This document shows positions 17,517 through 43,970 of a DNA stretch of 64,000 nucleotides, piece by piece. Location: NCBI RefSeq assembly GCF_932294415.1, contig NC_065543.1:44104277-44168276 (forward strand). Reading direction: 5' to 3'. How positions within the stretch are numbered: position 1 is the first letter of the stretch; every line of letters begins with the position of its first letter. The notes under the pieces were generated by a model, which did no database searches, had not been told where the DNA came from, and worked only from the letters and a program-made list of their open reading frames with translations. The translations under genes were made by a program, and so were the position numbers. This stretch comes from Quercus robur. Taxonomy: Eukaryota > Streptophyta > Magnoliopsida > Fagales > Fagaceae.

Positions 17517-17525
17517 TGGTATTTA
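17517..17525. repeat. Left 9-bp target duplication of the composite MULE
   Basis: TGGTATTTA directly abuts the first base of the terminal repeat at 17526. The identical 9-mer, in the same orientation, directly abuts the far end at 43962-43970. Confidence 0.65.
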
Positions 17526-17671
17526 GGGAAAATTGTCCACATACCCCTAAACTTTCAACTAGTGGCCAAAATACTCCATGAATTATTATATTACGAAATT
17601 TACTCTGTAAACTATACATATCTATCAAATCAGTACTTCAGTTAGTCTAACGTTAAAACATTAACAGAATA

Positions 17672-19240
17672 AGGGTCTGTTTGGATACTGTTTATTTGTT
17701 GAAAACTGAAATTTTATTGCTGAAAATACTGTAGTAAAGTAATTTTTAAAAATAAGAATCGTACTATGGACCCAAAAATGTATGGGCATGCGCGTTTTTG
17801 TGTTTTTGGTTGGGTCGTGAACAATACCGTGGGACTCAGCCAAAAACAAAAACGCAAATGCAATGCTAAATCATTTGCACGCAAACGCATACTAAGAGCA
17901 TCCACAGCAGTGGAGCTAAAAATTTAGCTTTTTAACTCCATCAAAAGTTATTTTATCTATTTTACCTACATACATGCTGCAGCAGTGGATCTATTTTAGC
18001 TTTCAACACAATAAAATAATATAAATATCACAATAAAATAATATAACCATTACAATGAAATAATATATCCCACTACCAAAAAAAATCTACAGCACCCACC
18101 ACAACCACTTCTACCATCAGCCACAGCTATAGCCACAACCACCACCACCACTGGCCACCAGTCCACATCAGGAAAAAAAAAAAAAAAAAAAAAAAAAACC
18201 CAAATCTCCAATCTTTTTCCTCAACCCAAACCAAACAAATCACCAATCACAAACAAAAAAAAAAAAAAAAAAAAAATGCAGCACAACCACCACTAAGGCA
18301 CCAACACAGCATCACCAACAAACCCACAGCCACCACAAAACAAACCCACAGTACATCACAAAACAAACCCACAGCCACAAATCACAAATCGGACCCATAA
18401 ATCACAAATCGAACCCACGCTGATACGACCCACCACCAGCAAAACAACCCACCACCACCACCATCTCCACCGTGACTCCTGAAATCCAACAACCCAAACG
18501 CCGAAACCTACCAAACCCAAATCCAGCTACCCAAACGTCGAAACCACACATCGAAACAAAAACCCAGCCCGAAACACAAAGCCGAAACATAAAGCTGAAA
18601 CACAAGTACAGCTCGAAACACAAAACCGAAACGTCAAAAATAGAAAAGAGAGGCCGAAATGGGTCAGGTCGGCGGTCGAACTTAGGTCGACAACCAAGCG
18701 TGGGTCGGCGGTGACGGGTCTGTGGCAGCTGGGCTCGTGCAGATCAGCGATAGGTCTTTGAGGAAGAAAGAAGGGTCTATGAAGGAAGAAAGAAGAGATG
18801 GGGAGGCAGGAAGGAGAGAGAGACAGAGAAAGGAGAATGAAGGAAAGAATAAAAAATAAAAAAAGAAGTGTGAACACAGAATAAAAAATTATTTTTCATT
18901 TTAGCTTTGAGCTACAGTGCACATCTATCTATAGATGTGCATTGTAGCAAAAAACTAAAAAAATTTAAGTATAGCTCCATTGCTATAGCCTCTTTTTTGT
19001 GTTTTGCTGCTACGAATGCTCTAAGCGTGCATTTGGATTGGGCGTTTTGCCCAATCGTGTGTCTGTGTTATTTTAGCAAGTCTCATGGGCACTATTTACG
19101 GACCTACAAAAGTCAGTAAAATACAAATTTCTAAGTAAATCTGGATCTTATTATACTGTTCACAAATTTAAAAATTATTTTATTACAGTATTTTCAACCA
19201 TAAACTTCTTATTTTTAGCATATCAGCGGTATGTAAACAT
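17672..19240. mobile_element. hAT-like MITE material nested in the E1 terminal repeat
   Basis: E1 reads AACAGAATAAG to 17671 and resumes at AGCATGTGAGATGC near 19241. The E2 right end reads straight through this point (ACAGAATAAGCATGTGAG), so about 1.57 kb was added here. The insert begins GGTCTGTTTGGATACTG and ends with TGTAAACATGCTC. Both halves share the text TTGAAAATACTGTA/GAAAATACTGTAG near their ends. It is itself split by the PIF-type MITE at 17896-19021. One or two hAT-like copies may be involved. Confidence 0.55.
17896..19021. mobile_element. PIF/Harbinger-type MITE
   Basis: This 1126-bp element has inverted tips GAGCATCCACAGCAGTGG and GCTGCTACGAATGCTC (reverse complement GAGCATTCGTAGCAGC). 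TAA flanks both sides (17893-17895, 19022-19024), the 3-bp target duplication of PIF/Harbinger elements. Inside are A-runs, an ACC/CCA-rich stretch (18080-18480) and a hairpin-like ACATCTATCTATAGATGTGC near 18920. The reading frames inside are compositional and show no family. Confidence 0.75.
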
Positions 19241-20582
19241 GCTCTAAAAGCATGTGAGATGCCTGTGTTCCCCGCAGAGAGGAGAGACCTCTGACCAACA
19301 GAAAAGAAAGAAAGGCGGTGAAACTAGAGCCACCGCAGAACTTCTCTCCGCCGTCTCGCCGCCCTTGTCCCGGCAATGCTTGGTGGTTTCGCTGCACCGT
19401 TCAATACCCAGCACCTGGTATTTTTTTTTTCCTTTCATTCTTTACCTGAGTTTAAATCCATAAAGAACTCTTTATTTTTCTGATCTCCATGTGCAAATTT
19501 CTTGGTTTGGTTTAGTTTTGGGGACTGGGTTTCTGCTTTGTTTGTTTCATAGAAATTAATGGAATTTACAAATGAAATAAACATTAAATTTGGGGGTATT
19601 ACAATATATATATATATATATATATATATCAAATGAATGAATTATATTCTTTATATTGTTTTGCAATTGATGCTTATGTGGCTAGTGATCTAGTGAACGT
19701 GTATTGCATTATTACTTTTGAGTATGCTATACAGCTATTTGATGAAATGCCTGTGTGAGATATGGCTACTGCATCATCCTAGACTTAGAGGATATGGTGG
19801 TTGCTTCCTCACACTTAGTATTGGCTAGAATAATTGTTTTAGATTATTTTGCATCAATTTGCAGATCATAAGACAGATGCATTATTTTAAGAACTCTTAA
19901 AATTAGATTCCACCTTCAGGGTCATTGAGTGTTGTTCAGGATTGGATCTAAAAAGTTAGAACTAGTTCAAGGTTGAAATTTTCTACGGACTCCAAAAGCA
20001 AGAAATGAATATTTAGATATCTTTTCAAAACTCTAATAATTATTTATAGAATCTAGGCTACGTGCTAAAATTTATGGAGTATTCTATTTGGAGACCTCAT
20101 TGAAGAAGAGAGGAATTGTCCTTTTACTACATTCAAGTTTGTTTTGATGTATTTCTAGTAACTTTTGTGGGCTAAAGACTTCATTTTAATTTTCAACGCC
20201 TTCAATTGCTAACTCATTTTCTTCCTTTCTGGTCTCTTTTCAACTGGTGGAACAAGAAAGAAGGAAAACACAATTTAGAGTGTAATTTAGCGAGCTTGCT
20301 GATAGGTGATTTTTTAGCACAGTGTGTATATTGTTTGATGTGTTGGCAATCTAGTTGCTAAGCATTTGACTCTTTATTGGCCATTTGCAATGAATTATAT
20401 TCTCCAAATTGTTTTATTTAAATAAGTAGACTGGTAAAAATACTAGCTTTAAGGGAATAGTTTAGCTTATGGATTAGGAGTTCAGTGTATTTTTTCCCTA
20501 TTTCTATATTGGATTTTTTTTTTTTTTTTTTTCTTTTTCCAGCTCTTTCTGTTAGTCTTCTTGTTAATTTTCTATTGTAGCC

Positions 20583-21008
20583 ATGGATGAATGTCTACTT
20601 TTACTCCCTGCAAATGCACCTTTTATGCCAAATGTACCACCCTCAAAATTGCCTACATCCAGTGCTTAAGTTGCTCTAGCAAAGCCCTTATCTGCCACTG
20701 GGAGTAGTACACTTCAGCTCAGTTCATCTTGTGTAAAACGTTCAAGCCACATTTTCTATGATTCTGATGATTACTTAGATCGAGATATTTATGAGATTGT
20801 AGATGCTATGGCTACTGAGTCTGAACCGTCTACATCCGGTGCTGCACAACCTACATTATTTGATATGATGGATCTCCTGCAACAGATTCTACCTTGCTTA
20901 TATCAGATTCTACATTACCTAAATCGTATTGAACAAGATATTAAAGAGATTAAGGAGGGTCAAGAGTTAGGAGTTGATAATTTAGTGATGTACTTATGTT
21001 CTTTGTGA
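20583..21008 (+). pseudogene. Small second ORF of the MULE (E1 copy), unknown family
   Basis: From ATG at 20583 the frame reads MDECLLLLPANAPFMPNVPP, an in-frame stop (TAA) follows TSSA, and the frame then continues open to 21008. The downstream part has SSTLQLSSS, an acidic DSDDYLDRDIYEIVDAMA block, a Ser/Thr-rich TESEPSTSGAAQPTLFD, and a helical end DMMDLLQQ then LNRIEQDIKEIKEGQ that could form a coiled coil. E2 carries the same ORF on its minus strand, with TAG at the homologous stop codon. It points toward the SWIM remnant, the convergent layout known for mudrA/mudrB of maize MuDR. I see no sequence match to mudrB. Function is unknown. Confidence 0.5.
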
Positions 21009-21461
21009 ACTTGCTGGTTTAGTACCTTGTGAACTTTGATGCTTAGTTATAACAGTTTGTTTTTGTACTTAAAACATACTTTACTTTATACTCCTTGCTT
21101 CCTGTAGGTTCTGAATATTGTCAATGTATGTATCAATTTCTTTCAGACTTTTCTTTTTTCTTGATTTGGTCTTAAAATTACAAAGAATTTAATATTCTTT
21201 TGCTCAACTGCCAATTTTATATACTTCCATGTAACTTTTAGGTGACCATGTTATTATTTACATGTAATCATGCAAGCAGAGCAATTTTTATGAATGATTG
21301 AATGGTGGCAGGCTATGTAACTTAATTAATTCTTTTCATAGTGTAGGAATAAAAATATTGGGGTGTCCCTCAGAGAAAAGCATTCAAGTTTTTTAAATGC
21401 GTGGGGACACAAGATTTGAGAGTGGCATGTGAATCTAATTAATTTTAATTCTCTGTTAATC

Positions 21462-22937
21462 CACAACACTGACTCACTACTCTACAAAGTCTTCAAAGCC
21501 AAATATTTTCCACATTGTACAATCTTGGATGAGGAGGTTAAGATGAAAGGATCCTATGCTTGGCAAAGCATTTTGAAAGCTAGAAGTCTGGTGCGTATAG
21601 GGTCAACTTGGAGAATTGGCGATGGAGAAAAAGTCCTTATAAGAGGTGATAATTGGCTACTTGAACAGTTTTCCAAGCAAGTCATAGATGAAGAAATCCC
21701 TTGCTGGTTGGAAGAAAGAGTCTGTGAAGAACTGATGCCGCATGAAGCCAATGCTGTCCTCAGTATACCCCTTAGCAGCAGGCAGCCAGAAGACACTCTA
21801 ATATGGTAAAAGTCAAAAAATGGAGTTTACACAACGAAGAGTGCTTATCGTTTACTAGCTGACAGTGAGGCCTTGAAACAACCTGGACAATCTAACCCGA
21901 CAGCTAATAATGGACTATGGAAGAAATTGTGGAGTCTTGACATCCCTAACAAAGTGAAGCACTTTTTATGGCGTGCTAGTTGTGAATCACAAATATCACT
22001 CGCAATGATATGTGCGAAATATGCGATGGCGAAGCAGAAGATACCATTCATGCATTGTGGGATTGCCATGTACTGAAAGAAATTTGGTGGGAGATGGACA
22101 TTTGCAGGAGTAATCTTGCTACTCGTTTCACTTGTTTTAGTGATCTCCTAACAGGAATTTTTAATAGTCAAGAACCAAACCAGGCCGAGGTGTTTGCATT
22201 TGTAGCTTGGGAGATTTGGAGAAAGAGGAATGCTTTAAGGGTGGGTGTTGACTCCATACCGTACTCAAAAATATTTGTGGAAGCCATTGAGAGATTGCAA
22301 GAGTTCCAAGCAGCACGGTCTGATCAAATCTTAACCAACCAGAGGAATGGTTTCACTAGCTGGGTCCCATCTCCTAACCCTCTGCTGAAAGTTAACTTTG
22401 ACGGGGCGGTATTCCAGGATACGTACCATGCTGGAATTGGTGTTGTAATCAGGGACTCCGAAGGCAAAGTTTTAAGTGCTTTATCTGAAAGGATCAAATT
22501 AACCCCAACGGTGGACGATGTTAAAGCAATGGCATGCAGGAGAGCAATTGAGAATGGACTACAACAAGCACTGTTTGAAGGGGACTCGGCAACAGTCATA
22601 AACGACATTCAAGCTGGTCCACCTTGTCTGGCTTCGTTTGGGCATATTATTGAGGATGCCATCAACTTGACTTCACACCTCTATTACTGCTCCTTTTCAC
22701 ATGTGCTACGAAAAGGCAATACTGTGGCTGACAAGGTAGCTATAAATTAGCTAAGTTTGTTTTGTACCCAAATTTTGGAAGGAGTACATCGCTAATGATG
22801 TCAGCTCTCTTGTATTACTCGACAGCAGCTTTGCGTTGGCTTAAATAAAATGGTTGACTACCGGGCTTTCTGGCCTAAGTGGTACCCAGTTCACTTGGTG
22901 ACCGCCAACTCATCCCCTGCATAAACAATTACCCAGC

Positions 22938-22989
<52 letters not shown>

Positions 22990-23031
22990 TAAAATGGTTG
23001 ACTGGTTTCTCAAAAAAAAAAAAAAAAAAAA
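21462..23031 (+). mobile_element. 5'-truncated LINE (zf-RVT and RNase H), nested in E1
   Basis: Only the 3' end of an L1-type LINE is present. The frame from about 21440 gives LLIHNTDSLLYKVFKAKYFP, then the zinc-binding part (KHFLWRASCE, CEICDGEAEDTIHALWDC) and a full RNase H domain (KVNFDGAVF, GIGVVIRDSEGKVLSA, ALFEGDSATVINDI, YCSFSHVLRKGNTVAD). The coding region is broken by an in-frame stop near 21807, a frame change around 21995-22040, and a small insertion near 22737 before LAKFVL. A poly(A) tail ends at 23031. E2 preserves the empty site: host text ends ...CTGTTAATC and resumes CTTCCC, without a clear target duplication. Reverse transcriptase and endonuclease are absent. Confidence 0.85.
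22860..22986 (+). mobile_element. SINE-like poly(A) retroposon inside the LINE 3' UTR
   Basis: The 17-bp phrase AAATAAAATGGTTGACT is present at 22843-22859 and 22987-23003. Between them are about 80 bases (ACCGGGCTTTCTGGCCTAAG...) followed by an A-run and an AT-repeat tail. This is a short poly(A) retroposon with its own target duplication. I cannot see a clear tRNA-type A/B box pair, so SINE against truncated LINE stays open. Confidence 0.65.
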
Positions 23032-23670
23032 CTTCCCAAAAGACAATTGGAATCCTTATAGCTTTGATATCAATTATAAAATAATATTGTTTGGCTTAAG
23101 ACTTTACCTATTAACTAGGTTTAAGCCTTTCATGCTCGACTGATGGACAACCTTAGAATATGAGATAATTTAAAACAAACTTGAAGTCCTTGTTTTTGCA
23201 TTGGAATAAAGGATGATGAAGTCCTTGTCTGAATTGAACTTTATGCAATAACTCTAAGGCTCTTTAATTTATTTATTATAAAAAAAAAACTTTCAACTTT
23301 TTTACATCCCCATAGAAAAAAAAAGAAAATAAATCTTGTCATCAGAGTAATTCAAATTTGTAATGTACTAATATCATATCATAAACACCAAAAACTGAAT
23401 ATGTCTCGATCTCCCATGGATTGGAATAATAATGAATGTTTACAAATAGTATATTGTTTGCTAAAAAAAAAAACAAACACTCAATGAATCAATAATTACA
23501 TTTTTCTAGCAATATTGAAAGACAAAAGTATACCGGCTCCATTAGTAAACAAAATATTGAATTAAAAAACTATTTATCTTCTTCGTACCACTAGACCTTA
23601 GTCTTTCCCTTGTCCTTCTTGCTTCCACTAGTGTTGTCAACATAATTCTTAAGTTGCTCTCCATGCTCAA

Positions 23671-23916
23671 TTATTGTAGAAGCAATAATTTTGCGATAAT
23701 TAAGCATGGAAAACATGGGATTCCACTCAATCCCCTTCTCCCACAACCACAAGTCCTCTCATTCAAGTCCACCACATATCTTCGACCATAAATATACTCC
23801 ACCTCATATTTGGACTCTCCATTCCAATAAGAAATGCAATGTACAACCTCGCTTTTTATCCTCTCAAGATCATACATGATGGGTACACATTGTGTTACCA
23901 CTTGATTATTAATCAA
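23671..23916 (-). pseudogene. MULE transposase SWIM-domain remnant (E1 copy 1)
   Basis: The minus strand encodes SKYEVEYIYGRRYVVDLNER, then TCGCGRRGLSGIPCFPC. This is the SWIM zinc finger at the C-terminus of MURA-type transposases (usual pattern C-x-C-...-C-x-H). The final histidine is replaced because the sequence after C-F diverges. It corresponds to the better-preserved copy at 39756-40076. The catalytic DDE domain is missing. Confidence 0.65.
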
Positions 23917-24094
23917 GCCTCAACCATTATGAAAGACTAATAACTAATTAACAAACAAAAGTATATCGGCTCCATCAGTAAACAAAATACTGAACTAAAA
24001 AATTATTTATCTTCTTGGTACCACTAGACCTTAGTCTTTCCCTTATCCTTCTTGCTTCCACTAGTGTTGTCTACATAAGTCTCAAGTTGCTCTC

Positions 24095-24141
24095 CATGCT
24101 CAATTATTGCAGAAGCATTGCTTCTGCAATAATTGAGCATG
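24095..24141. repeat. Perfect 47-nt hairpin (23-bp arms, 1-nt centre)
   Basis: CATGCTCAATTATTGCAGAA continues to GCA, then one T, then its exact reverse complement ending GAGCATG. The arm sequence comes from the MULE SWIM-exon tail, so this is a local inverted duplication inside the second SWIM copy. Confidence 0.95.
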
Positions 24142-24184
24142 AAAACATGCAATCCCCTTCTCCCACAATCACAAATCCTCTCAT

Positions 24185-24412
24185 TCAAGCAATAATTCTG
24201 CAATAATTGAACATGAAAACATGCAATCCCCTTCTCCCACAACCAAAAGTCCTCTCATTCAAGTCCACCACATATCTTCGAACGTAAATACACTCCACCT
24301 CATATTTGGACTCTCCATTCCAATAATAAATGCAATGTACATCCTCGCATTTTATCCTCTCATGATCATATATGATGGGTACACATTGTGTTACCACTTG
24401 ATTATTAATCAA
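24185..24412 (-). pseudogene. MULE SWIM-domain remnant (E1 copy 2, tandem duplicate)
   Basis: About 430-490 bp after the first copy the same segment recurs, from the AAAGTATA-CGGCTCC motif through AACCATTATGAAAGACTAATAACT. Its translation has SKYEVECIYVRRYVVDLNER and then diverges after GCGRRGLH. It carries extra local duplications (CAATCCCCTTCTCCCACAA twice) and the 47-nt hairpin. E2 has only one copy, so the duplication is specific to E1. Confidence 0.65.
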
Positions 24413-24792
24413 GCCTCAACCATTATGAAAGACTAATAACTAATTAACAAAACAAATGCAACAGCAGATCAATTTGAAGCAGACCTCGGCTATGACTATG
24501 TAAATATATTTAGAAATCTCTGCAGATAACAGCAACAATTTAGAAATGTAAAAAATCAAATAAAAAATAGTAGTAATTTAAGAAATATTTTATGGGCGTA
24601 TAAGACTGTAAAAACACTGCTGTCGGGCAGGAGATAAAACATAGAATACAATGCTGTGATTCTAAATCTACTACATTGGTGTACAACACCAAAATGGGAA
24701 TAGGATACCACTAAGTAATACACTGAGAAGTTACAGTACATAATAGGATGCTCCATGCACTATCACACCACCCCAACTATTCTTCTTGCACA

Positions 24793-24799
24793 TATAAAT
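24793..24799 (+). promoter_or_regulatory. TATA box of the BAHD gene
   Basis: TATAAAT lies 97 bp before the ATG at 24890 and only about 42 bp after the end of MULE E1 homology at 24751. The leader is CT-rich (CTCTCTCTCTCTCAC). Confidence 0.6.
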
Positions 24800-24889
24800 T
24801 CACTCTTGCTCCCATTTCCCTTGTAAACATATCAAGCATATTTTCATTTGCACGCTCTCTCTCTCTCACACACAATAGCACTTATTATC

Positions 24890-27800
24890 ATGGATATGCA
24901 TACAGAGATAAGAGACTTCATGGTGACTGTGAGCAAGAAAGAGGTGGTGGCAGCCAAATTTCCAAATCAAGAGCATTGGCTACCACTATCTAACCTAGAA
25001 ATGTGTTTTGGGCCTCCATTGGATTTTAGTCTCTTCTTTTGTTATACGAAGCCAACCTGTGAAGACAACTGGACATTTGTGTCAAAGGTTGAGGTTCTAA
25101 AGAAGGCCTTGGCAGAACCTTTGGTTCCATACTACGCTCTTGCTGGTGAGATAATTCCAAACTCCATGGGTGAACCTGAGATTCTTTGCAACAACCGTGG
25201 GGTAGACTTCATTGAAGGTTTTGCAGATATAGAACTTCAAAACCTCAACTTGTATAGAGCTGATGAGACCATTGGCTGCAAACTTGTACCCAAGAAGAAG
25301 AATGGCGTGCTGGCTGTTCAGGTCAGGGTCAACGCTATACTTTGTTTTGATTTATTTATATAATATTTTTTTTTTGTTAGTTTAATACTTAAATTTATTC
25401 TTAAAAATATTATTTTTGCACAACCTAATTTAAATTTTATATACTCTTATTACAAATATTTCCAACTATAAGAGTAAAAATAACTAAGTATTTAATTAAG
25501 GATTGTAAGTATCACTCTTTATCATAAATTTATATTAGAATAATGCTCAAATTACAAACTATTTTACAAAATGTTAATATGACCTACTTCTTATTGGTTT
25601 TTATTTAAACCCACTATTAATATCACTTTTTTATTTATCAATAATCACTCACCACGCTAGCCGTTTGTAAAAAAATTTGTAAAATAGTTTGTATTTTTAG
25701 CATTATTCTTTATATTATATGTGTGTGAATGTATCTAATATTGATTTTATGCATTACTTTTTGTTATAATGTTATTTGTGTAAATAATAATGTGTGTAGA
25801 AGTTTGTGTGTACCTTATAAATATAAGGGAAATGTTTTGACATCATTTTCATGGGAAATATAACAATTGCCCTAAAGGTATCTATTAACATGATCCTAAA
25901 TATAATATAATTTTATCTAATTTAGTAATTAGGAAATAGAAAAGGTTTGTTGCATGTGTGTATTGTTATCATGTTATAATAATCTTTTTTTATAAAGTCA
26001 GAAAAATTCAAGAAAAAAATTGTAAAGTTAGTGATTGTTCAAGTATTTTATTAGTTAAGTAGACATGTAGTATATTATTTATGTATGAATGAGTATAGTT
26101 ATGTGCATCAATAATTAATACAAAACCAATGAGTTGAGTTTATTTATTTAGTTTAAATTATTTTTATAAAGACAAAGACAAATAGATAATAACAACTACA
26201 TAAAAATAAAAATAAAAATATTAGACAAACTTAACAAAATAAAATGGTCATAACTACCTACAATGGCAATAAATACTCATATTGAACTATCATATAATAA
26301 TTCAAAATTTGAAAACTTTTAAAAAGAAATTGTAAAACTTCAATTTTTTTTTTGGTATCAATAACTCGATATATTCAAGTTCTCTATCTTTTTATTATTA
26401 TTTTTTTTTCATTTAAGTTTTTTAATGAACCCCCTAAACAAAATTTTTGGAGCCACCACTGGTTTAGGTTTGTAAAGGAACAATGACCTTGGAGATTTGA
26501 GGCTATCCTAGAAGACATTAATTCTTTGATCTTATCCGATTATATGGTAGTATTTTTTTTTCTACTATGACTAAGTCTCACATACATCAAGTTATTACAA
26601 AGAGAAATCCATTGGAGGCAACCCTAAAATATTAGTAAGATGTTTCAAAATTAGGAATAGGATCTCATGGATATCATAACACCTTAAAAACCACTTACCA
26701 TTGATAGATCAAATGATATTAATCTAAAACTTAGAGGAACTAAAAGTACTTTGGATTATAAAAAAATACATGGTTAATTTTTTTTTTTGGTTAAATCCAA
26801 ATTACACCATTTAAGTTGGATAAATTGTCATTTTTGTCCTCAAAGGATTTTTTTTTAATCATTTTAATTCCTAAACTTTAATAAATATGTCAAGTCTATT
26901 ATCCCGTACATTCACGTTCATAAAATTATTATTGAGTTCAATAAAATAACGTCGCCTTACATAAGTAAAGTTTTATTGTTGGAATAACCAATCTTGACAA
27001 GAATATTAAAGTTTAAATATTAAATGAGAAAGAATAAACTCTAAGGATGAAAACTCACTACTAAAGGGGTATACTGTTGATTGTAGGTTTCCCCCCTTTT
27101 TTTTGGGTTAGTCTTTTGCTAAATTAATGCCATGAGACCTACTTGTAGGCTACTGGGTTCAAATGTGGCGGACTTATGGTGGCATGCACTTTTGGCCATC
27201 AAATAATGGACGCATACTCGGCCAGCATGTTTCTTATCTCATGGGCTGAGGTTGCTCAATCTAAACCTTTCTCTTCACTACCAACATTCTGCCGATCATT
27301 GCTCAATCCTCGAATCCCCGGTTCCTTTGATTCTTCGATTGAAAACTTGTGCATCCCCATCACAACGTTCCACCCAACCAAAGAGCCAAACCTGGGCGCT
27401 AATAACTTTGTTAGCCGCACGTACATTGTTAAAGCCAACATTATCAACCAACTCCAATCACTAGCCAGCACCAATGAATGCAAAAGGACTAAAGTTGAGT
27501 GTTTCAGTGCACTCCTATGGAAAATTATTGCCAAAAGTGGTACGACTGACAAAAATATATCCAAACTGGGCATTGTTGTTGATGGAAGGACAAGAATTGG
27601 CCGTGGAGACGAAGAGAAAACAAAGATATTGGCTTCTTACTTTGGATTCGTGTTGTCCATTCCTTATGGAAGCAAGAACGTAGATGAGCTTATTGAAAAA
27701 CCATTGAGTTCGATAGCAAATGAAGTTCATGGAATTGTGGAAAGTGCAATGACTGAGCATTTCTTGGATTTGTTAGATTGGGCAGAGGCTCATCGTTCAG

Positions 27801-28138
27801 TTCCTAGGTTGTTAAAGATATATGCCTATGGCAGCAGAGAAGGTCCTGCTCTTGTGGTTTCGTCTGGTTTGAGGTTTCCATTATCAAAGGTGCAGTTTGG
27901 ATGGGGAAGACCAACTTGTGTGTCATGCTATTTCCCATGGGGTGGAGATGCTGGGTATGTGATGCCAGTGCAAAGCCCTTCTGAAAATGGTGATTGGATC
28001 GTGTACATGCACCTCTTGAAGGAGGAATTGGAATTGATAGAACGTGAAGCTGGTCATGTGTTTAGGCCTTTAACTATGGAATACCTCAATGAATTTGAAC
28101 AAGAACCTCTTGTTAGTTTATCAAATGTGACTGTTTGA
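24890..28138 (+). CDS. BAHD acyltransferase (two exons)
   Basis: BAHD enzymes move an acyl group from CoA to an alcohol or amine in specialised metabolism, in the cytosol. Exons are 24890-25321 and 27149-28138, with GT/AG borders and in-phase joining, giving 473 codons before the stop. The start MDMHTEIRD was chosen over an upstream ATG because it follows a TATA box and a CT-rich leader. The N-terminus shows [20 protein letters not shown]. The catalytic motif HQIMD (HxxxD) is at residues 161-165, immediately after the intron join. The structural motif near the C-terminus reads QFGWG at residues 393-397 instead of DFGWG. The general style resembles coniferyl-alcohol/hydroxycinnamoyl transferase-like members, but the substrate cannot be read from sequence. 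No break is seen. It lies between two inverted MULEs. The intron is 1827 bp. Confidence 0.9.
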
Positions 28139-28223
28139 TCATGTTCACTAGTTATCTTATATTATATTATGCAAACGTGTCATGTATATATTTAGAATAA
28201 GTTTATGCATTTATATGTAACAA

Positions 28224-29213: not shown

Positions 29214-29252
<39 letters not shown>

Positions 29253-31848: not shown

Positions 31849-34800
31849 TAGATCCCTGATGAGTTCGGTCCTGGTCCCATTGAGGATTCCGTGTTAAGGT
31901 TTGTAAAAGAACATTGATCATGTGCTATTTGGGAAGGCAAGGTAAAATTAAAACCGACCACCTGCTAAATATTCTCTTCTTATCCTTTTACATTATATTG
32001 ATTTTCTTTTTCTTCCCATTTCTAAAATTCTAAGTTTGTCAATGGTATTACTAGCTTTGAATGCATAGTCATGCCCATTAGTTGGGTTAAGTTAGATTGG
32101 TTGACTGTTGCACACCCTTACATAAATGTTACACTTAGATAATTAAAGATATTGCCATTGATAAGATTTAGAGAGGTTTGACTGTTTCAGTCTTTTAGCA
32201 TTGGACTAAGATAACCAAATTGAATTGTGAGAGCTAGAGAGAATCAAATTTTGATGTATGTATTCGTTGTAAACATGGTGGGTAATGGGTTTGATTGCAA
32301 TTATGGCAATGTTTACACTAGCATGCATGGCATAAGTAGCAAGATAAATGGCTAAAAACAAATGTATCAAGTGCATTGCATCCTTTTATTTTTCTCCTGT
32401 TGTTGCTTTTTTTTTTTTTTTTTTGAGATGATATTTTAATTTTCCTTGATAACCGCTTTATTTTTGTTTTTTGGGATCAATAGCTACAATCATATATACA
32501 AAGGTTATGGTATATTGCATCTCATCACCATGGTCCTATCATGTGCAGGATTCGAGGGCACTGAAATGTTGCGGTCGTAATGACGAGTTCTAAAAATGAC
32601 GCCGGATAGTGGTGGATGATTGCATCATTGACATTGTCAAGAGAGTTGGATTAGAGGGGTTGCATAGGACCCCATGTAGAGAGATTGATCATAGCTTGAT
32701 AACGGTCTTCGTTGAGCGATGGCGGCCTAAAACCCATACCTTCCACTTGCCACATGGTGAGACAACGATCACATTACAAGATATGGAGGTTCTTTTGGGG
32801 ATTCCAATCGATGGTGAGTCAATTGTTGGAACAACTGACTTGACATGGGTTGCTGAATGTCAAAGTATGCTTGGAATTGCTACTAATGGTGTGGTGCTTA
32901 AAGGACAAAGGATCCTAATTAAGAAGCTACTAGAAAAAAATTGACCAAGGGTTGCCCGATGGTGCAGCAGAGGTGGTTGTGCATCAATATGCACGGTGTT
33001 ATATTCTAGTACTCCTGGCAGACACAATTTTCGCCAACAAGTTTGGTGATAGGGTGCATAGGATATGGTTGCAGATGTTGAAGGACCTTTGCAATTGACC
33101 TCAGTACAGTTGGGGGAGCGCTTGCCTTGCACGATTGTACAGAGAGTTATGCAGGGCAATCGACAGAGGTGCCAGTCAGATTGGTGGGGCCTTGATACTG
33201 GTTCATTAGGCATGGATCAAATTCCCTTTTTTGTGCCCAAAGATAGACCTCCCACCAGATGGTGCATATGGCCTACCATTTGCACCTTCTCCACTGTCCA
33301 TTAAGTAAGTCTCTTCCTTGACCAATTCTCTCTATTGGAAATAAATCTATAATTTTAAACACATTGTTAGACATAGAAAATAAAATTTTCACCTTGATAT
33401 TCCTCAAATTTTGAAAATTAATAGGATTTTTATTTATTTTTATATATCATTTTACAACCACTGAGGTCATATGTTATGATTGATATATAATACAAGTGTT
33501 ATTAATTTCTAACTCCACCACTAATCATATGTTTAGATAATCAATTATTGGTATAAACTTAGTGGTATGTAATGTTAAATTTACGATTGCCCATCATTTA
33601 TTGTTGTTGATTACTTCAAATTCTCAATTCCAAGTATTGACTCCCTCTTTCTTAATTGTAGGACCGTGTGGGTCGTGAGCACCTTGAATAGCCCCGCTAA
33701 AATTTGTCTGGTCCGGTACTGTTAGCTATTAGATTCTATACATCCCAAGCAGGTACCCAAATTGTGTTTCTTCTATTGTTTATGACTATTGTATTTATAA
33801 CTGTAAAAGAGCTCATAGTCGAAAATAATGGAACATTGCATAATGTGCTGCCCTTTTATTTGGCTATTTTAGGGGGTGGCAACCATATGAAATTGAATTA
33901 GCCCGCCTGCCTGTGTTTTGTGTCGCAAGAAGGGACGTATGGACGGCGAGGGTGCCGCTTGTATGTTTCTGGCTAGTAAAGAAACATACATCGGACCGTG
34001 TTGTTCGTCAGTTTGGGATGGTACAAGAAATCGCCCCAAATGTTGATACTGACGAAGCCCTTCATGCCATAGACCTGAGGGGGAAGATGAAGGTGAATTG
34101 GAGGGACAGACATTATGGCCATATCCAAGTATGGAATAGTCGAGCATGATCTCTATGTCATGAAGCACGAGTAAAGGGTGATATGTCGTCTGCTCATCCA
34201 TACTTCGATTGGTATAGTAGGGTGACTTAGAGGTTCGTCGACCACACTACGGTTGTACTTTTTATTATGGTAATTTCTTCGACCTTTCTTTTCAATTTTT
34301 GTTGCGAATCACCATTTTTGTGTTAGATGTACTAATTGTATTTATTTACTTGCAGGTTGCCAGTCACAAGCAGCTGTTGACGCGTTATACAGTAGGCAGT
34401 CCTGAGTGCAAGCATATTTCAGCTATACTTAAGACAGTGGAACGCCTTCACCGTATAACTGTCCAACTTCCAATGGAAGAGACCAATGGGGCAAATCCAG
34501 AAGCGCCAAAAGATACTGGATGACCAAGCACGAGCTTAACTCGTGCTAGCCATAGCCATAGTCAGCGTGCTGCATCCCATCAAGTTGTCAGTAGGTCGGA
34601 CCCCACATGCATCTCCTACCCCAGAGTTCCCTCCACCTCCACCTCCACATGCATCTCTTTCCCCAGAGATCCCTCCACGTACTGCTTATGCAGTTCCTGA
34701 CCTAGAGATCCCTTTACCCACTACTTATGCATCTTCTCACCCTGAGATCCCTTCACACACCCCACGTACATTTTTTGATCCCGCTCATCTTTCATTTACT

Positions 34801-35181
34801 CCGCCATCCTTTAATCTCAGTCCTGATTTCAGTCAGACCCCTCCTGTCATGTACACTCAATCCCCCTCATACAGCATTGGTCATATAGACCATGTACCAC
34901 CCCATAGTCACTCCATGTCATTCATGCCCACTCCTGGACTGCATATAGATCCCATGACTATAGGCCTCACTCATATTTCATCTGTTACACCATCCTCCCC
35001 CGCAATTGTAGGATCTTCAGTTGTTGGGAGTCAAGCAAAACAGCCAAATGTGCATCTTGAAAATGAGCAAGTAGTTGGGTTACAGTCACCTCCACAAGGT
35101 CAACCTAAATGCACAACAAAAGCACCTCCTTGTGAGACAGGTGGTCACAAAGCAAGACACAAGACTGGCCCCATAATATGA
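31849..35181 (+). pseudogene. Plant mobile domain (PMD/MAIL-like) gene remnant
   Basis: PMD genes are carried by plant transposons and gave rise to host MAIN/MAIL genes that act in silencing and meristem maintenance (family knowledge). Exon-like pieces in order: DEFGPGPIEDSVLRFVKEH at about 31858; MVDDCIIDIVKRVGLEGLHR through VERWRPKTHTFHLPHGETTI and DMEVLLGIPIDGES at 32609-32944; a broken stretch to a donor-like GTAAGT at 33305; WQPYEIELARLPVFCVARRD, VPLVCFWLVKKH and VVRQFGMVQEIAPNVDTDEA at 33870-34150; FDWYSRVT; then a Pro-rich tail (34543-35181) with repeated PEIP units. Several in-frame stops and frame changes mean no full protein is made. No transposase is visible in the element. Confidence 0.75.
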
Positions 35182-37480
35182 CAAGTCATTTAATGTAATG
35201 AATATTGAGTAACTGCTTTTATGGTTGATATTAGAATTCATGTAACCCATTGTTTGGTTGTAATTCCATCTTTGCAGCAATGCGAGGAGCCTCATCAAGG
35301 AGAAGCAGCACCCCCTCCCCTACATACGAGACACTATACGAGACAGCATAAGCGTAAAATGCATTAGGATTAGCACCCCATCTGAATGTGTATGTGAATT
35401 TTGTTATTGAGTTTTCAATTTGTTTATTTTAGGCTATATGTAATATATTGGATGACTTTGACCTTCTGACCATCATAATGGGAGAGGGGCCTTTGGAGAG
35501 GTTAGAGATGTGGATATTTTATAAACTACATACAAGCTTCGTTGTCAAGATCTTTCCCAAAACAGTCCTCGTGTTCATCTTCAACTACTGGAACTGTAAA
35601 GGATTCACCTCGATGTGTACAAAATTGATCTTCATATCTATTTCCAAGTTTGCTCTCAATTGTTGTTGGTGTCTCTTGAAAAGGGGGTGTATAGCCTCCC
35701 AATGTGGTGCATCAATCATCTAGGACTGCAAACTGTAGAGATGTAGTTGTTTGTACAATTTCCTCTACACCGACTTCCGCATGCGGCTCCAAAGTGACGT
35801 ACAACTCAAAATTTGCTACTTGTTCCCATTTTTTGCATCTTACTAAACATGAATTTCACATGTTTGTCCTCTGCTATCGCCATATATTTGTAATTAATGC
35901 ATTGATTGAGGACTTCATGTGGAGAACGGAAAGTAATATGTATGTTATGCAAAGCAGGGTTCACTTACAACTCTTCCATAATTTTTACTTTCAAATCATT
36001 TAGGGTCTTTAGCTTACAACATATCATCATATAGTAGCATTGGATACTCGGACCTTGAAATGAGAATCCGTCATAAGGGTTGACATTGCTAAGGGGTCCA
36101 CTGTAGTATATATTTATATGGATCATTGTCAACCTATAGATCATCAAGTGCAATGGTGTTAGTGACAAATTTATAACACTCAATCAACATCAATCACAAA
36201 ACTTTGCGTATGAAATGCCAACAATACTAACCTCAACCAAATTTGCATATACTCACCTCAGGTCACATACAAAAATAGTCATTACCAATTTCATATTCTT
36301 TTAAAATTCCAAATCATTCTAGGGGCATGACTTTCAAAACCCATTCAAATAAGTTATGATGAACAAAAAAATTATATACCAACCAGTTATCCATTGAAAT
36401 CTCTGTTACAAATCTTAAATAAATATATCTTGAAATAATTTATGGTAAAAAGACTACAAATACTATCTTAGGTATCAAACTCATAATCCATTTCATATCC
36501 ATGATAAAGACCTAAAAGTACTAAATATTCCTAACAATTGATCACAATATTTAGTACTAAATGTTCCCAATAATTAATCATAATATTAATTTTTAAAAAA
36601 AAACTTAGCATATTATCACAATATTTACACTAACAAACAAAACAAAACAAATATTCCCATATGTTATAATAACATAATTAATCACAATATTTGGTACTAA
36701 ATATTCCCAATAATCACAATATTAATTTTTTTTAAAAAAACTTAGCAAATAATTTAATCACAATATTTACACTAACAAAAAAAAAAAAAAAATTCCCAAT
36801 ATGTTGTAATTTAATCACAATATTTAGTACTAAATATTCCCAATAATTAATCATAATATTACTAGTCGTTATAGATATTTTTTCTTAAGTAGATTCATGA
36901 TCTTATATAAATGTGTCCAAATATTCAGACATTGGTTTGGCGGTAAGTAATCAAGTTCATCATTCAATTGAGCACTAATGTCAAAACTCAAATAGCTTCA
37001 CTTGTCATGATTAAATGCAAGCTATCAAAATAAAAGGACTGAACAAAACCAATTTCAAGATATTACTAGTTTTTTGGACATAACATGAGTAATTTGAGGG
37101 TGATTACACTTTTTATAATTAATCATAATATTAATTTCAAAACAAAAAAACTAGCAAATAATCACAATATACTAACAAATAAACTAATCACAATTTACTA
37201 ACAAATAAATTAATCACAATATTTACACTAACAAAAAAATAAATAAATAAATAACTTTTCCTAATATGTTCTAAATTTTACTTTAAAAAAAACTAGCAAA
37301 TAATCACAATATTGTAAAAACGTTACCTGAGATAAGTGTTGTGTGAGATGAGTGTTGTGTGAGACAGTTTAGGAAAGTTGTGAGTGAAGAGAATATACTA
37401 AGAGCTGAAGAGACAGGTAAGGAGGAAAATAGGTCCCAGCTGGGACCCACGGCAACACGTGGAGGGCTGGGGACCATTCA
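35182..37480. other. AT-rich inner part of the PMD element
   Basis: No gene is supported. From 36535 to 37310 a unit with AATCACAATATTT, TAGTACTAAATATTCCCA and AACTTAGCAAATAAT recurs about every 140 bp in diverged copies. The mirrored terminal repeat begins at about 37330. Confidence 0.5.
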
Positions 37481-37973
37481 TAGAAATCGAGTCCAGTAGG
37501 CTTGATTTCCAACTCAGTATCCACGTGACCAAAAACTATTGATGTTGTGGGATGAGACTAGTAAATCGAGTCTAGTAGACTCGATTTCTATGAACAAAAA
37601 CCGAGTCCATCGGACTCGATTTCTATGTACAAAAACCGAGTTCAATGAACTCGATTTCTGGGTGTATGTGGACACTTTGTCCACCTTAGTTGCTGGCAAA
37701 ATAGGAAACTCGAGAACAATATACTCAATTTATAACCCGGAAATCGAGTCCTCTGGACTCAAATTGTTAGAAACCAAATATGTTTGAAATGTTGCCTAAC
37801 TAATAATATAGTTTGGGTTTTATAGTTATTTTTTAAAAAAACCCCAATTTACTCCCTAAACTAATAGAATAAAAGCATGTGAGATGCACGTGTCCTTAAA
37901 AACTAACTAAACCACACACTCGATAGAAAGCTGTGTGAGGAGAGACTAGAGATCTGACCAACAGAGAAAAGAG

Positions 37974-38711
37974 GAATTTTTTTTTCTAAATAACAATAAA
38001 TATTAAAAAATTTAGTTAGTTGTCACGTTTCAAAATAATATTGAAAACTAGCATCTCGAGTGTCTGAAACTCGAGTTTTTAAGTCTCGGTTTGCATGTGG
38101 TGGTAACTGAGGTGGAGGTAAAATCCACGTGGAACTCGAGTTTGTAAGGGTCGAGTTCTACTTTTTAAGACTCAAGTTTTAAAAACTCGAGTTTTACCAT
38201 ATGATTTTCCTTTTTCTTCCTCACGTTCTTCTGACCCAGCGTTGTTCTTCTTTGTTCTTCGACACTGCAGATCGTCCTCTTCAGATCGGAGCTCCAGCGT
38301 TCATCAAATCGTTGTTCTTCGACACTGCAGATCGTCCTCTTTAGATCAGAGCTCCAACGTTCATCAGATCGTCGACGCTGCACATCGTTCCTCTTCAGAT
38401 CGGAGCTCCATCGTTCCTCTTCAGTTCTTCCTCTGTTCTCTGTTCTTCGTCAGATCGTACTTTGTGTTTTTAGGTATCAAAATCGAGTCTTAGAGACTCG
38501 GTTTTGCTTTTTAGAACTCGAGTCTATAAGACTCGAGATCTATCTGGCAAAAACTGACCAAATCAGCCAATGGAATTCGAGTATTTGAGGGTCGATATTT
38601 AGAACGCATCTCGACCCTTTTAAACTCGAGATGCTAGTTTGCAGTTTTATTTCTACGCATGTCAACTTATTATATTATTTCCCTCACCACCGTTATTCTG
38701 CACATTCCCTC
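37974..38711. mobile_element. Short MULE-type element with CGAG-box ends, nested in E2
   Basis: This 738-bp element is flanked by an exact 10-bp direct repeat GAGAAAAGAG (37964-37973, 38712-38721). Its inverted ends are imperfect at the tips but strong inside: AACTAGCATCTCGAG near 38047 mirrors CTCGAGATGCTAGTTT near 38625. Further AACTCGAG/CTCGAGTT boxes lie between. A middle part (38220-38460) holds three copies of a unit with GATCGTCCTCTTCAGATC/GGAGCTCCA. E1 lacks this insertion at the homologous place. Confidence 0.7.
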
Positions 38712-39755
38712 GAGAAAAGAGAGAGAGAGGCGATAAAACTAGAGCCACCTCAAAGAGTCTTCCGGTCGTCTCGCCACCCTTGTACTTGCGGCATTTTGGT
38801 AGTTTAGCCATGCCGTTCACCACCCACCACCTGGTTTTTTTTTTTCCCCTCTTACGTATTGCTCTTTAAATCCACAAAGAACTTTTTTTCCATCTCCATG
38901 TACGAATTTCTATAGTGGAAATTATTTGTTTGGTTTAATTTTTGGGTTGGGTCTCTGTGATTTTTTTTTTTTCCTCCATATGCCATTCACTGGCTGTTCG
39001 ATTAAATGCCTGAGAGACATATGACTACTGCTCTAATGGTTTAACCAATGAAGCCTGAAACTGGCTACATGCATCAGTGGGTGTGCAAAATATGCGCCTA
39101 ATGTCAATGCTGTAATTGTCAAATATGGAACTCTAATAATTTTTTATAGTAATCTTACTTCCATAGATTAATTTTTTACCATGGAAAAAGGAATCAGTCG
39201 ACGACATTATGCATCCTTCAAACCAGACTTGATAAATGCCAAAACGTGTACTCAGAGTTGGGTCTCTACTGAACTCAAGTTCATGGTTGAACTTCTCTGG
39301 GTTTTGGGGAAATGCAGGAAGACTTCAAATTGGTAGACGAATGAATTCAGTATTGAGTGCATTTGGCTCATGTGGCTGATACTTTTTTTTGTTACTTTTC
39401 CTGAAAGGTTTACTTTCCCTACGAATTGCATATGTACTATAGCTTCTCAGTGTATTTCCATATTGGCATCCTATTATGTACTGTAACTTCTCAGTTTATT
39501 ATTCCTTAGTGGTATCCTATTCACATTTTGGTGTTGTACTCCAATGTAGTAGCTTTAGAATCACAGCATTGTATTCTATGTTTTATCTTCTGCCTGACAG
39601 CAGTGTTTTTACAGTCTTATACGTCCACAAAATATTTTTTAAATTACTGCTATTATTTATTTGATTTTGTACATTTCTAAATTGTTGCTGTTATCTGCAG
39701 AGATTTCTGAATGTCTTTACATAGTCACAGCCGAGTCTTTCATAATGGCTGAGGC

Positions 39756-40076
39756 GTGATTAATAATCAAGTGGTAACACAACATGTACCCATCATATAT
39801 GATCTTGAGAGGATAAAAAGCAAGGTTGTACATTGCATTTCTCATTGGAATGGAGGGTCCAAATATGAGGTGAAGTATATTTTTGGTGGAAGATATGTGG
39901 TGGACTTGAATGAGAGGACTTGTGATTGTGGGAGATGGGGATTGAGTGGAATCCCATGTTTTCATGCTGCTTCTGCAATAATTGAGAATGGAGAGCAACT
40001 TGAGACTTATGTAGACAACACTAGTGGAAGCAAAAAGAATAAAGGAAAGGCTAAGATTCTAGTGGTAGCAAGATAA
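39756..40076 (+). pseudogene. MULE transposase C-terminal SWIM-domain exon (E2)
   Basis: The plus strand encodes SKYEVKYIFGGRYVVDLNER, then TCDCGRWGLSGIPCFHAASAII. This is a complete SWIM zinc finger (C-D-C ... C-F-H) of MURA-type transposases, which helps DNA binding. A short Ser/Lys tail follows (TSGSKKNKGKAKI). The DDE catalytic core that should precede it is not in the element, so this is a fragment. It faces the small ORF on the other strand at 41155-41500. Confidence 0.75.
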
Positions 40077-41139
40077 AAAATTTTTTAGTTCAATATTTTG
40101 TTTACAAATGGAGCCGGTATACTTTTGTTTTTCAATATTGCTAGAAAAGTGTAATTATTGATTCATTAAGTGTTATTTTTTAGCAAACAATATACTATTT
40201 GTAAACGCTCATTCTTATTTCAATCCATAGGAGATTGAGACATATTCAGTTTTTGGTGTTTATGGTATGATATTCGTTCATTACAAATTTGAATTACTCT
40301 AATAACAAGATTTATTTATTTATTTTTTATAGGGATGTAAGGAATTAAAATTTTTTTTTTGTTTTTTATTTATTTATAATAAAGAAATTAAAGAGCCTTA
40401 GAGTTATTGCATAAAGTTCAATTCGGACAAGGACTTCATCATCCTTTATTCCAATGCAAAAACAAGGGCTTCAAATTTGTTTTAAATTATCTCACATTCT
40501 CAGGCTGTCCATCAATCGAGCATGCAAGGCTTAAACCTGGTTAGCAAGTAAAGTCTTAAGCCAAAAAATATTATTTAATAATTGATATCAAAGCTGTAAG
40601 GATTCAAATTGTCTTTGGGAAGATGATTAACAGATAATTAAAATTAATTAGATTCACATGCCACTCTCAAATCTTGTGTCCCCATGCATTTAAAAAACTT
40701 GAATGCTTTTCTTTGAGGGACACCCCAATATATTTATTCCTACTCTATGAAAAGAAATAATTAAGTTACATAGCCTGCCACCATTCAATCATTCATAAAA
40801 ATTGCTCTGCTTGCATGATTACACGTAAATAATAACATGCTCACCTGAAAGTTACATGAAACTATATAAAAGTGGCAATTGGGCAAAAGAATATTAAATT
40901 CTTCGTAATTTTAAGACCAAATCAAGAAAATAGAAAAGTCTTAAAGAAATTGATACGTATATTTACAATATTCAGAATTTACATGAGGCAAGGAGTATAA
41001 AGTACAGTATGTTTTAAGTACAAAAATAGACTTTTATAACTAAGCCTCAAAGTTCACAGGGTACAAAAACCAGCAAGTTCACAAAGAACATAAGTACATC
41101 ACTAAATTATCAACTCCTAACTCCTAATGCTCCTTAATC

Positions 41140-41496
41140 TCTTTAATATCTTGTTCAATACGATTTTAGTAATGTAGAATCTAATATAGTCTGCTGCAGG
41201 AGATCCATCATATCAAATAATGTAGGTTGTGCAGCACTGGATGTAGACGGTTTGGATTTAATAGCCATAGCATCTGCAATCTCATCAATATCTCGATCTA
41301 AATAATCACCAGAATCAAAGACGGTGTGGCTTGAAAGTTTTACACGAGATGAACTGAGCTGAAGTGTACTACTCCCAATGGCAGATAAGGGCTTCACTAG
41401 AGTAGCCTAAGCACTGGATGTAGACAATTTTGAGGGTGGTACATTTAGCATAGAAGGTGGATTTGCAGGGAGAAAAAGTAGACATTCATACATGGC
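41140..41496 (-). pseudogene. Small second ORF of the MULE (E2 copy)
   Basis: On the minus strand this segment matches the E1 ORF at 20583-21008: an ATG-like start near 41496, a stop (TAG) at the homologous codon after TSSA, then KPLSAIGSSTLQLSSS, DSGDYLDRDIDEIADAMA and SAAQPTLFDMMDLLQQ. A small deletion relative to E1 then shifts the frame (TILDSTLLKSY), before the LNRIEQDIKEIKE part. The family is unknown. It is convergent with the SWIM exon. Confidence 0.5.
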
Positions 41497-42597
41497 TACA
41501 ATACAAAATTAACAAGAAGATTAATTGAAAGAGTCAAAGAGCTGGGGAAAAAAAAAACAATATAGAAATAGGGAAAAAATACACTGAACTCCTTGTCCAT
41601 AAGCTAAAATATTCCCTTAAAGCTAGTATTTTTACCAGTCTACTTATTTAAATAAAACAATATGAAGAATATAATTCATTGCAAATGGTCAATAAAGAGT
41701 TAAATGATTAGCAGCTAGATTGCCAACACATCAAACAATATACACACCATGCTGAAAAATCACCTATCAGCAAGCTCGCTAAATTGCAATCTAAATTGTG
41801 TTTTCCTTCTCTCTTGTTCCACCAGCTGAAAAGAGACTAGAAAGGAAGAAAATGAGTTAGCAATTGAAGACGTTGAAAATTAAAATGAAGTCTTTAGCCC
41901 ACAAAAGTTACTAGAAATACATCAAAATAAACTTAAATGCAGTAAAAGGACAATTCCTCTCTTCTTGAATGAGGTCTCCAAATAGAATACAACATAAATT
42001 TTAGCATGTAGCCCAGATTCTATAAATAATTATTACAGTTTTGAAAAGACACCTAAATATGCATTTCTTGCTTTTGGAGTGTGTAGAATATTTCAACCTT
42101 GAACTAGTCCTAACTTTTTAGATCCAATCCTGAACAACACTCAATGACCTCGAAGGTGGAATCTAATTTTAACAACTTGGAATTGAGTTCTTAAAATAAT
42201 GCATCTGTCTTATGATCTGCAAAATTGACGCAAAATAATCTAAAACAATTATTCTAGCCAATACTAAGTGTGAGGAAGCAGCCACCATGTCCTCTAAAGT
42301 CTAAGATAATGCAGTAGCCATATCTCACACAGGCATTTCATCAAATAGCTGTATAGCATACTCAAAAGTAATAATAAAATACACATTCACTAGATCACTG
42401 GCCACATAAGCATCAATTGCAAAACAATATAAAGAATATAATTCATTCATCTGATATATATAGTAATTTCAAGCCCCAAATTTAATGTTTGTTTCATTTG
42501 TAAAGTCCATTAATTTCTATGAAACAAACAAAGCAGAAACCTTGCCCCAAAAACTAAACCAAACCAAGAAATTTGCACATGGAGATCAAAAAAATAA

Positions 42598-43182
42598 GGC
42601 CAAAATGGGAAATTAACCTTGATTTTCAAACATTATAATTAGTAAGCTACGTTTTCAAACTATATTTTTTACTAGTATCTCAAGTCTTAAAGACTCGATT
42701 TTGGCCTATAAATCGAGTCTCAAATACTCGATTTCCATGGTCTGATCCCATCTGATGTGACATTTTTTCCACGTGGCGTTCACTTGGAAATCGAGTCTCT
42801 AAGACTCAATTTATAAACCAAAAAAATTTTAAGTCTCAAGTCTCTCAGCCATTCCCAGAAATACCCAAAAAAAAAAAAAAAATTAAGAAATCCAAGAAAT
42901 GCAACAATCCAGCACAATCAAATTAGAGACACACCAGAAACACAATAATCCAGCATATTCAGATCAAAGACACAACAATCTCAGCACAATCAGATCATAG
43001 AGAGAAAGATCTAGAGACCCAGATTAGATAGGAGAGAGAGAGGCCGCGCTGCTTAGGGTCGGGTTGCCCAGGGCAGCGCGGCCTGGGACCATGGGTGGGT
43101 GGGTTTCAAGTCGACGTGGGTGGCTTCAACTCGAGTGGATGGCTTCAGATCTTGAGCTTGCATCTCCATTTCTTCTTCTTAT

Positions 43183-43213
<31 letters not shown>

Positions 43214-43509
43214 TTTTCTTTCTTTATGTGTTTTTGCTGTTTCTGCATTTTGGGTCTTCTGAGTATGAATGATTGTAATTATTTTTGGGTTATAAATCGA
43301 GTCTTAGAGACTCGATTTCCAGGTAGACACCACGTGGAAAAAATACCACATCAGACGTTATCAACCTATGAAAATCGAGTCTCAAAAACTCAATTTATAG
43401 GCCCTAAATCGAGTCTCTTAAACTTGAGATGTTAGTAAAAAATATAGTTTGAAAACGTGGCCTACTAATTATAATGTTTGAAAATCAGGGTTAATTTCCC
43501 ATTTTGACC
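42598..43509. mobile_element. Short MULE-type element with GACTCGAT-box ends, nested in the E2 right terminal repeat
   Basis: This 912-bp element has tips GGCCAAAATGGGAAATTAAC and (reverse complement) GGTCAAAATGGGAAATTAAC, and about 90-bp inverted ends (TTTTCAAACTATATTTTTTA mirrored). Flanks AAAAAATAA (42589-42597) and GAAAAATAA (43510-43518) are a 9-bp duplication with one difference. E1 preserves the empty site (GATCAGAAAAATAAAGAG when reverse-complemented). AAATCGAGTCT/AGACTCGATTT boxes repeat near both ends. The centre holds a (CT)n run at 43185-43208. There is no coding signal. Confidence 0.8.
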
Positions 43510-43719
43510 GAAAAATAAAGAGTTCTTTGTGGATTTAAACTTAGGGAAAGAATGAAAGAAAAAAAAAATACGAGGTGCTGGGTATTGAACGGTGCGGCAG
43601 AACCACCAAGGCACTGCCGGGACAAGGGCGGCGAGATGGCAAAGAGAAACTTTACAGTGGCTCTGGTTCTATTGCCTCTCTCTCTCTCTCTCTTCTGCCG
43701 GTCTGAGGTCTCTCCTCTT

Positions 43720-43759
<40 letters not shown>

Positions 43760-43961
43760 CTACCGTGCGATTGAATTTGTTTTGTAAGGAAGTGGGGAAC
43801 ACGTGCATCTCACATGCTTATTCTGTTAGTGTTTTTACGTTAGACTACAGTACTGATTTGACAAGTATTTATAGTTTAAGGAATAAATTTGCTAATATAA
43901 TAGTTCATGGCCTGTTTTGGCCGGTGGTTGGAAGTTTAGGAAGTGTGTGGGCATTTTTTCC

Positions 43962-43970
43962 TGGTATTTA
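43962..43970. repeat. Right 9-bp target duplication of the composite MULE
   Basis: TGGTATTTA follows the last base of the E2 terminal repeat, identical and in the same orientation as 17517-17525. Confidence 0.65.

Follow-up and report, generated by a model that had tools for sequence, protein, structure and literature searches.

Introduction

In the Ac/Ds macrotransposons of maize, ends from two elements function together and carry the DNA between them as a single unit, with sizes of 10.3 kb, 28 kb, and as much as 100 kb described (PMC9910405, PMC3260210). As these sources present them, they are hAT elements with 8-bp target duplications and are maize laboratory alleles. Here, by contrast, we describe a pair of Mutator-like elements (MULEs) with a 9-bp duplication in what appears to be an old natural insertion with an intact gene. 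The locus lies in a 64,000-nucleotide stretch of Quercus robur DNA (G000:C39:44104277-44168276), hereafter the window, which belongs to a 786-Mb assembly in 42 contigs. Positions without a contig name are those of the window. In it, the outer ends of two inverted MULEs, E1 and E2, appear to have formed a 26-kb mobile unit that took a complete BAHD acyltransferase gene off its family cluster on contig C5.

Several described systems resemble this locus in part. A head-to-head VANDAL21 pair in Arabidopsis likewise consists of two inverted MULE copies whose ends were apparently used together (PMC12312487). Those events are, however, somatic rearrangements in met1 plants, with about 200 bp between the elements and target duplications that are not fully resolved, and the available sections of that paper report no gene carried to a new place. 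According to the same source, VANDALs had not been linked to alternative transposition before this was proposed there in 2025. Alternative transposition is also discussed for MULE-linked deletions in citrus, where the authors' own deletion is said not to fit (PMC4334395).

Pack-MULEs share with the oak locus that host sequence is enclosed by MULE ends (PMC9168764, PMC2869330), but they are usually described as 2-3 kb in one element, whereas here a two-exon gene with its flanks is enclosed by two separate elements. AT1G49715, a defensin-like Arabidopsis gene that transposed recently, has been classed as a Pack-MULE with 10-bp duplications (PMC2869330), and transduplication is defined as the complete or partial capture of a gene by a DNA transposon (PMC6710886). 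Gene carriage by a DNA transposon is thus not new in itself. Multi-TIR MULEs, which carry more than the usual terminal inverted repeats (TIRs) and are described from tomato and other genomes, also have an outer target duplication and an extra inner terminal repeat without one of its own (PMC3310237), but the inner repeat in our case belongs to a two-tipped element inserted in identifiable donor DNA. In one barley MULE family, 9-bp duplications are reported for 267 of 278 elements, together with TA-rich sites and GGG...CCC ends (PMC9168764).

Up to half of Arabidopsis genes are said to have moved since the split from papaya (PMC2869330), and the movement of whole genes with promoters and introns is rarely readable. 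At the oak locus, a single genome shows both the ends of the transposons and the target duplication, and it also retains the source gene cluster along with uninterrupted copies of the E2 entry site. If our reading is correct, it represents an inherited natural alternative transposition of MULEs that moved an enzyme gene with an intact open reading frame (ORF). In the literature searched, which left most subscription papers outside its reach, we found no MULE macrotransposon with an intact gene.

Results and Discussion

Outer flanks and target duplication

The outer tip of E1 (17526) and the outer tip of E2 (43961) each directly adjoin TGGTATTTA in direct orientation (Table 1). The outer ends of two separate elements are accordingly flanked by one common target duplication, as is expected of a macrotransposon. 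Read inward, the E1 tip is GGGAAAATTGTCC and the right tip of E2 is GGAAAAAATGCCC, and the two align in inverted orientation over 150 columns at 80%. These long terminal inverted repeats, along with the tips of the family (GGGAAAAATG), have the GGG...CCC-type ends of Mutator-like elements. The left end of E2 has a different flank, which matches TGGTATTTA at four of nine positions, or at two to three of nine when the boundary is moved by 1-2 bases. An initial annotation of the window had described all three features, namely the shared duplication, the homologous inverted ends, and the deviant left flank of E2, and each holds here, with the left tip of E2 placed at 30538 rather than 30539.

Table 1. 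Positions of the composite, the elements, and the acyltransferase gene in the window
Feature	Positions	Strand	Evidence
Left copy of outer 9-bp target duplication, TGGTATTTA	17517..17525	+	Sequence match and tip-family controls
E1, MULE without inner end, outer tip at 17526	17526..24751	-	Body is an inverted copy of that of E2
E1-specific insertion absent from E2, LINE-like, RVT_3 ORF at 21986-22750, terminal poly-A	21462..23031	+	
E1/BAHD-segment junction, 4-bp microhomology ATGC	24748..24751	.	Present both in E2 (as a proxy for an intact E1) and at the BAHD locus on C5
Donor segment, aligns colinearly with the BAHD tandem genes of C5:84.593-84.617 Mb	24748..30537	+	
BAHD exon 1	24890..25321	+	PF02458
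BAHD exon 2	27149..28138	+	PF02458
E2 left flank, AAAAATATA	30529..30537	+	C5 copies continue unbroken across this point
E2, MULE with both tips (30538, 43961), E3 nested inside	30538..43961	+	Tip scan, alignment, SWIM domain
E3, MULE-like, plant mobile domain (PMD) gene, in left terminal repeat of E2	30618..37844	+	Superfamily inferred
Right copy of outer 9-bp target duplication, TGGTATTTA	43962..43970	+	Sequence match and tip-family controls

Target duplications of about 9 bp (7-12 bp) are expected of Mutator-like elements. As controls, we took all facing +/- tips no more than 15 kb apart among 33 listed matches to the tip family (40 of 149 candidates scored), which yielded eight pairs with 1.2-7.5 kb between their tips. 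All eight pairs have 9/9 matching flanks, although two of them lie in TA repeats, where a flank match carries little information. Two further family members were read by eye: the element at C2:21431194-21434447 has 9/9 flanks (TATCAAAAA), and a small element at C6:17.08 Mb has 8/9 flanks with a one-base shift. A common 9-mer is thus the normal insertion mark of this tip family, and the outer pair of the composite bears it as the control pairs do. Facing tips of the same family also occur at C5:32006467 and C5:32068286, 62 kb apart and outside the control set, and may be two ordinary elements or another composite.

The outer flanks could instead match by accident, had E1 and E2 inserted separately around a resident BAHD gene. 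The chance of identity for a random pair of 9-mers from the window is 3.5e-5, rising to 2.8e-4 when both are A/T-rich, as these targets are, and a third copy of TGGTATTTA is present at 45351 (at least three copies occur in 18 of 100 shuffles). However, two separate insertions would leave the mismatch between the flanks of E2 itself and the kinship of the gene with a cluster on C5 unaccounted for. Among the 56 ordered cross pairings of the control flanks, moreover, only two match at 9/9, both between two TA-repeat flanks, and the others match at seven positions at most. We regard such a coincidence as extremely improbable.

The enclosed gene and its C5 relatives

The two-exon BAHD gene is intact, just as had been annotated initially, and its ORF has 473 codons and a stop. 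Exon 2 carries HQIMD and QFGWG, which we take to stand at the HXXXD and DFGWG positions of BAHD enzymes, respectively. By sequence, the nearest solved structures to the protein are hydroxycinnamoyltransferases (5e-17). As in a Pack-MULE, a host gene sits between transposon tips, here the outer tips of E1 and E2.

The initial annotation had also proposed looking for the gene elsewhere, and this search located its family on C5. When the assembly was searched with the exon 2 protein, 122 of 133 candidates were scored and 53 matches obtained. Apart from the window itself, the 12 highest-ranking matches all lie on C5, at 84.6-89.0 Mb with 60-86% identity, and the next, on C41, has 36%. No other genomic copy of the unit was seen among these candidates, all close BAHD matches outside the window being on C5. 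We compared positions 17001-45000 of the window with C5:84570001-84650000 and two 10-kb stretches at C5:86.86 and 86.90 Mb. All matches above 60 bits fall within 24748-30544. The homology begins exactly at 24748 in four C5 places, and in five it extends as far as 30544, the seventh base of the E2 tip. Two of these five are parts of gene copies, and the remaining three are short cluster pieces. When aligned with their flanks, the C5 sequences remain alike past both limits, while the window diverges into E1 on one side and into the E2 tip on the other. The interval between E1 and E2 is therefore C5-type DNA up to the E2 tip, and, because the C5 copies are unbroken where E2 starts, E2 had inserted into DNA of the BAHD cluster. 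For E2 at least, the alignment suggests that the element and the enclosed DNA stem from one and the same donor locus.

The same observation bears on whether the whole unit might have jumped as an ordinary element, namely one MULE with an additional terminal repeat in its interior. MULEs of this kind, which have target duplications at their outer ends but none at a solo TIR in the interior, are described from tomato (Ferguson and Jiang, PMC3310237). E2, however, is tipped at both ends, and five C5 places have continuous DNA where its left tip stands in the window, which identifies the inner end as that of a separate insertion. A Pack-MULE, likewise, would consist of one element and would not enclose another with two ends, and E2 has both tips. 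We consider a single multi-TIR element very unlikely, and, as regards the last jump, its distinction from macrotransposition is one of wording.

Exon 2 sequences from 13 of 20 fetched BAHD loci were used for a tree, from which two distant rows, four fragments, and one copy with four stops were excluded. In this tree, C5:84594 and C5:84613 together form the sister group of the window gene (support 100/100), and these three group with three other C5 copies (92/89). The window gene has 93% exon 2 identity to the two sister copies, which are 96% identical to each other, indicating that its split predates their duplication. Between the window gene and C5:84613, Ks is 0.107 and Ka is 0.068 (31.0/309.7 and 72.0/1100.3 sites; 470 codons; NG86), and this Ks would be an upper bound on the age of the move. 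The Ka/Ks ratio of 0.64, which is not separable by lineage, is weak evidence that the gene may be under constraint.

Two stretches of the donor segment, 25324-26461 and 28224-30142, are unmatched in the C5 genes at 84.6 Mb, except for about 160 bp near 29973-30135 that resemble other C5 places; judged from the alignment, they are probably later insertions. On C5, the C5:84594 paralogue has a TAG (C5:84596681) at the position of the ATG of the window gene, and the next ATG follows shortly after. Two pieces of about 300 bp (C5:84599208-84599507 and C5:84601506-84601803) directly link about 200 bp from the start of the unit with 70-80 bp from its end and look like internally deleted copies.

Elements, junctions, and order of events

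The bodies of E1 and E2 are inverted copies, with E1 19472-24751 aligning to E2 42597-39466 in pieces of 83-91% (the longest is 90.8% over 2,005 columns). The homology ends at 24751, and a tip scan of 24751-30538 found no inner tip of E1, its best inverted candidate (25968) having 10 mismatches in 28, which is no better than matches elsewhere. The left terminal repeat of E2 is split by E3, a 7.2-kb element with arms of 284 columns at 91% and flanks CAATTTATT and CAATTTACT that match at 8/9. Since E1 lacks its inner end and the left end of E2 is interrupted, both of which go beyond the initial annotation, the outer ends are the only undamaged pair. As a transposase-type remnant, E2 retains a SWIM zinc finger at 39753-40076 (E 1.5e-7). 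The E1 match to it is weak (23671-23919, minus strand, E 0.027) and falls under the Pfam cut-off, and no MULE catalytic domain was detected in the seven E1 and E2 ORFs tried, where this zinc finger was the only domain found.

E1, E2, and the element at C2:21.43 Mb are about equally distant from one another in body (89.9-91.5%). The E1 and E2 tips are 80% alike, while each reaches up to 85% with other family members. We thus rejected the possibility that E1 is a recent inverted copy of E2 made by fold-back duplication. An inversion through E1-E2 recombination was set aside by reasoning, as it would not yield equal outer flanks. Movement through flanking direct repeats, as modeled in PMC2869330, was also rejected, the only direct repeat found at the outer edges being the 9-bp duplication beside the tips.

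We consider it likely that E1 and E2 moved as a MULE macrotransposon from a C5-type locus to C39 with the BAHD gene enclosed. E2 would have inserted downstream of the gene in a C5-type cluster (2.4 kb away today), with E1 upstream of it in the opposite orientation. A deletion would have removed the inner end of E1 and fused E1 to the promoter region of the gene. The transposase would then have paired the outer end of E1 with the outer end of E2 as the two ends of one element, and the interval would have moved to C39, into a site flanked by an RDR2-like gene and a RING-H2 gene, where the usual 9-bp duplication would have been made. We infer that, at the donor, E1 already stood upstream of the gene, that the whole unit travelled in a single transposition, and that its donor copy later disappeared. 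Such use of the outer ends explains the flanks, the mismatch at the left of E2, and the C5 kinship, and the missing inner end of E1 fits it.

The same footprint could, however, have been left without the unit ever moving. E1 alone might have inserted on C39, making TGGTATTTA on both sides, and a break in E1 might then have been repaired from a C5-type locus with both the BAHD gene and E2: a template switch at ATGC, copying of the gene and all of E2, and rejoining of the right end of E1 through the shared terminal repeat. This would be acquisition in the style of a Pack-MULE at a large scale. The 4-bp microhomology at the E1/BAHD junction speaks for it, MULEs are described as acquiring host sequence in the form of functional genes or fragments (PMC9168764), and the outer flanks would match as well. 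It would, however, take about 12 kb of interchromosomal copying (5.8 kb and, for E2 minus E3, about 6.2 kb), in contrast to the 2-3 kb reported as usual for Pack-MULEs (PMC9168764). Copying also keeps the donor, yet none of the five C5 places that match the downstream site carries E2. Given the length to be copied and the expected but unseen BAHD gene plus E2 on C5, we consider such a repair unlikely. That this arrangement is missing from C5 is not decisive, as clusters turn over and the donor could have been lost later.

Neither junction recurs elsewhere in the assembly matches. The E1/BAHD junction is crossed by none of 10 other matches (all candidates scored), and both sides of the BAHD/E2 junction are present in none of 40 (40 of 149 candidates scored). 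Among these 40, five from C5 extend across the first seven bases of the tip, and some that match the tip start as many as 19 bases ahead of it.

Several points weigh against macrotransposition as we propose it. The donor composite was not found, there being no E1 or E2 match above 60 bits in the 80-kb C5 region that includes the nearest paralogues or in the two 10-kb C5 stretches. For any one pair of flanks, a 9-bp match alone has a chance probability of about 3e-5 to 3e-4. The proposed position of E1 upstream of the gene at the donor is deduced from the junction only, and repair in place predicts the same outer flanks. Finally, the footprint is read from this one genome. The initial proposal that the outer ends were used together and moved everything between them is thus strengthened by the C5 kinship and the 8/8 controls, while its mechanism is likely but unproven, the footprint fitting capture by gap repair too.

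It is possible, although rather doubtful, that the loss of both inner ends, by deletion in E1 and by E3 in E2, meant that only the outer ends could still serve as a pair, and so forced the two MULEs to move as one. If this were true, the decay of linked inverted MULEs would be a general route by which complete genes travel with promoter and introns between plant chromosomes.

Target site and other features

To the left of the composite lies the RDR2-like gene on the minus strand, with ORFs between 9802 and 16242 and RdRP and PH_RDR2 domains. The RING-H2 gene (47834-48994) lies to the right. A dispersed repeat at 43979-44560 starts about 8 bp to the right of the outer duplication and has at least 30 further matches, mostly at 69-79%. 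We fetched 19 of its loci (40 of 198 candidates scored), of which 18 hold the repeat and one, L054, is a MULE tip. Insertion into this repeat, with an empty site preserved in another copy, was tried and rejected, as none of the 18 copies fetched from this genome crosses the junction or bridges the site. Sixteen copies were aligned upstream, where L046, L048, and L050 share DNA with one another and the others share only simple repeats.

Positions 40625-42172 in E2 and their inverted counterpart in E1 resemble a tandem locus at C4:10.59-10.76 Mb, at 70-89% in pieces. From this resemblance, the shared body of E1 and E2 may include an older captured host fragment that these MULEs also hold. At 3714-4565 of the window, there is a tandem array of a 280-bp unit (2.9 copies, 90%).

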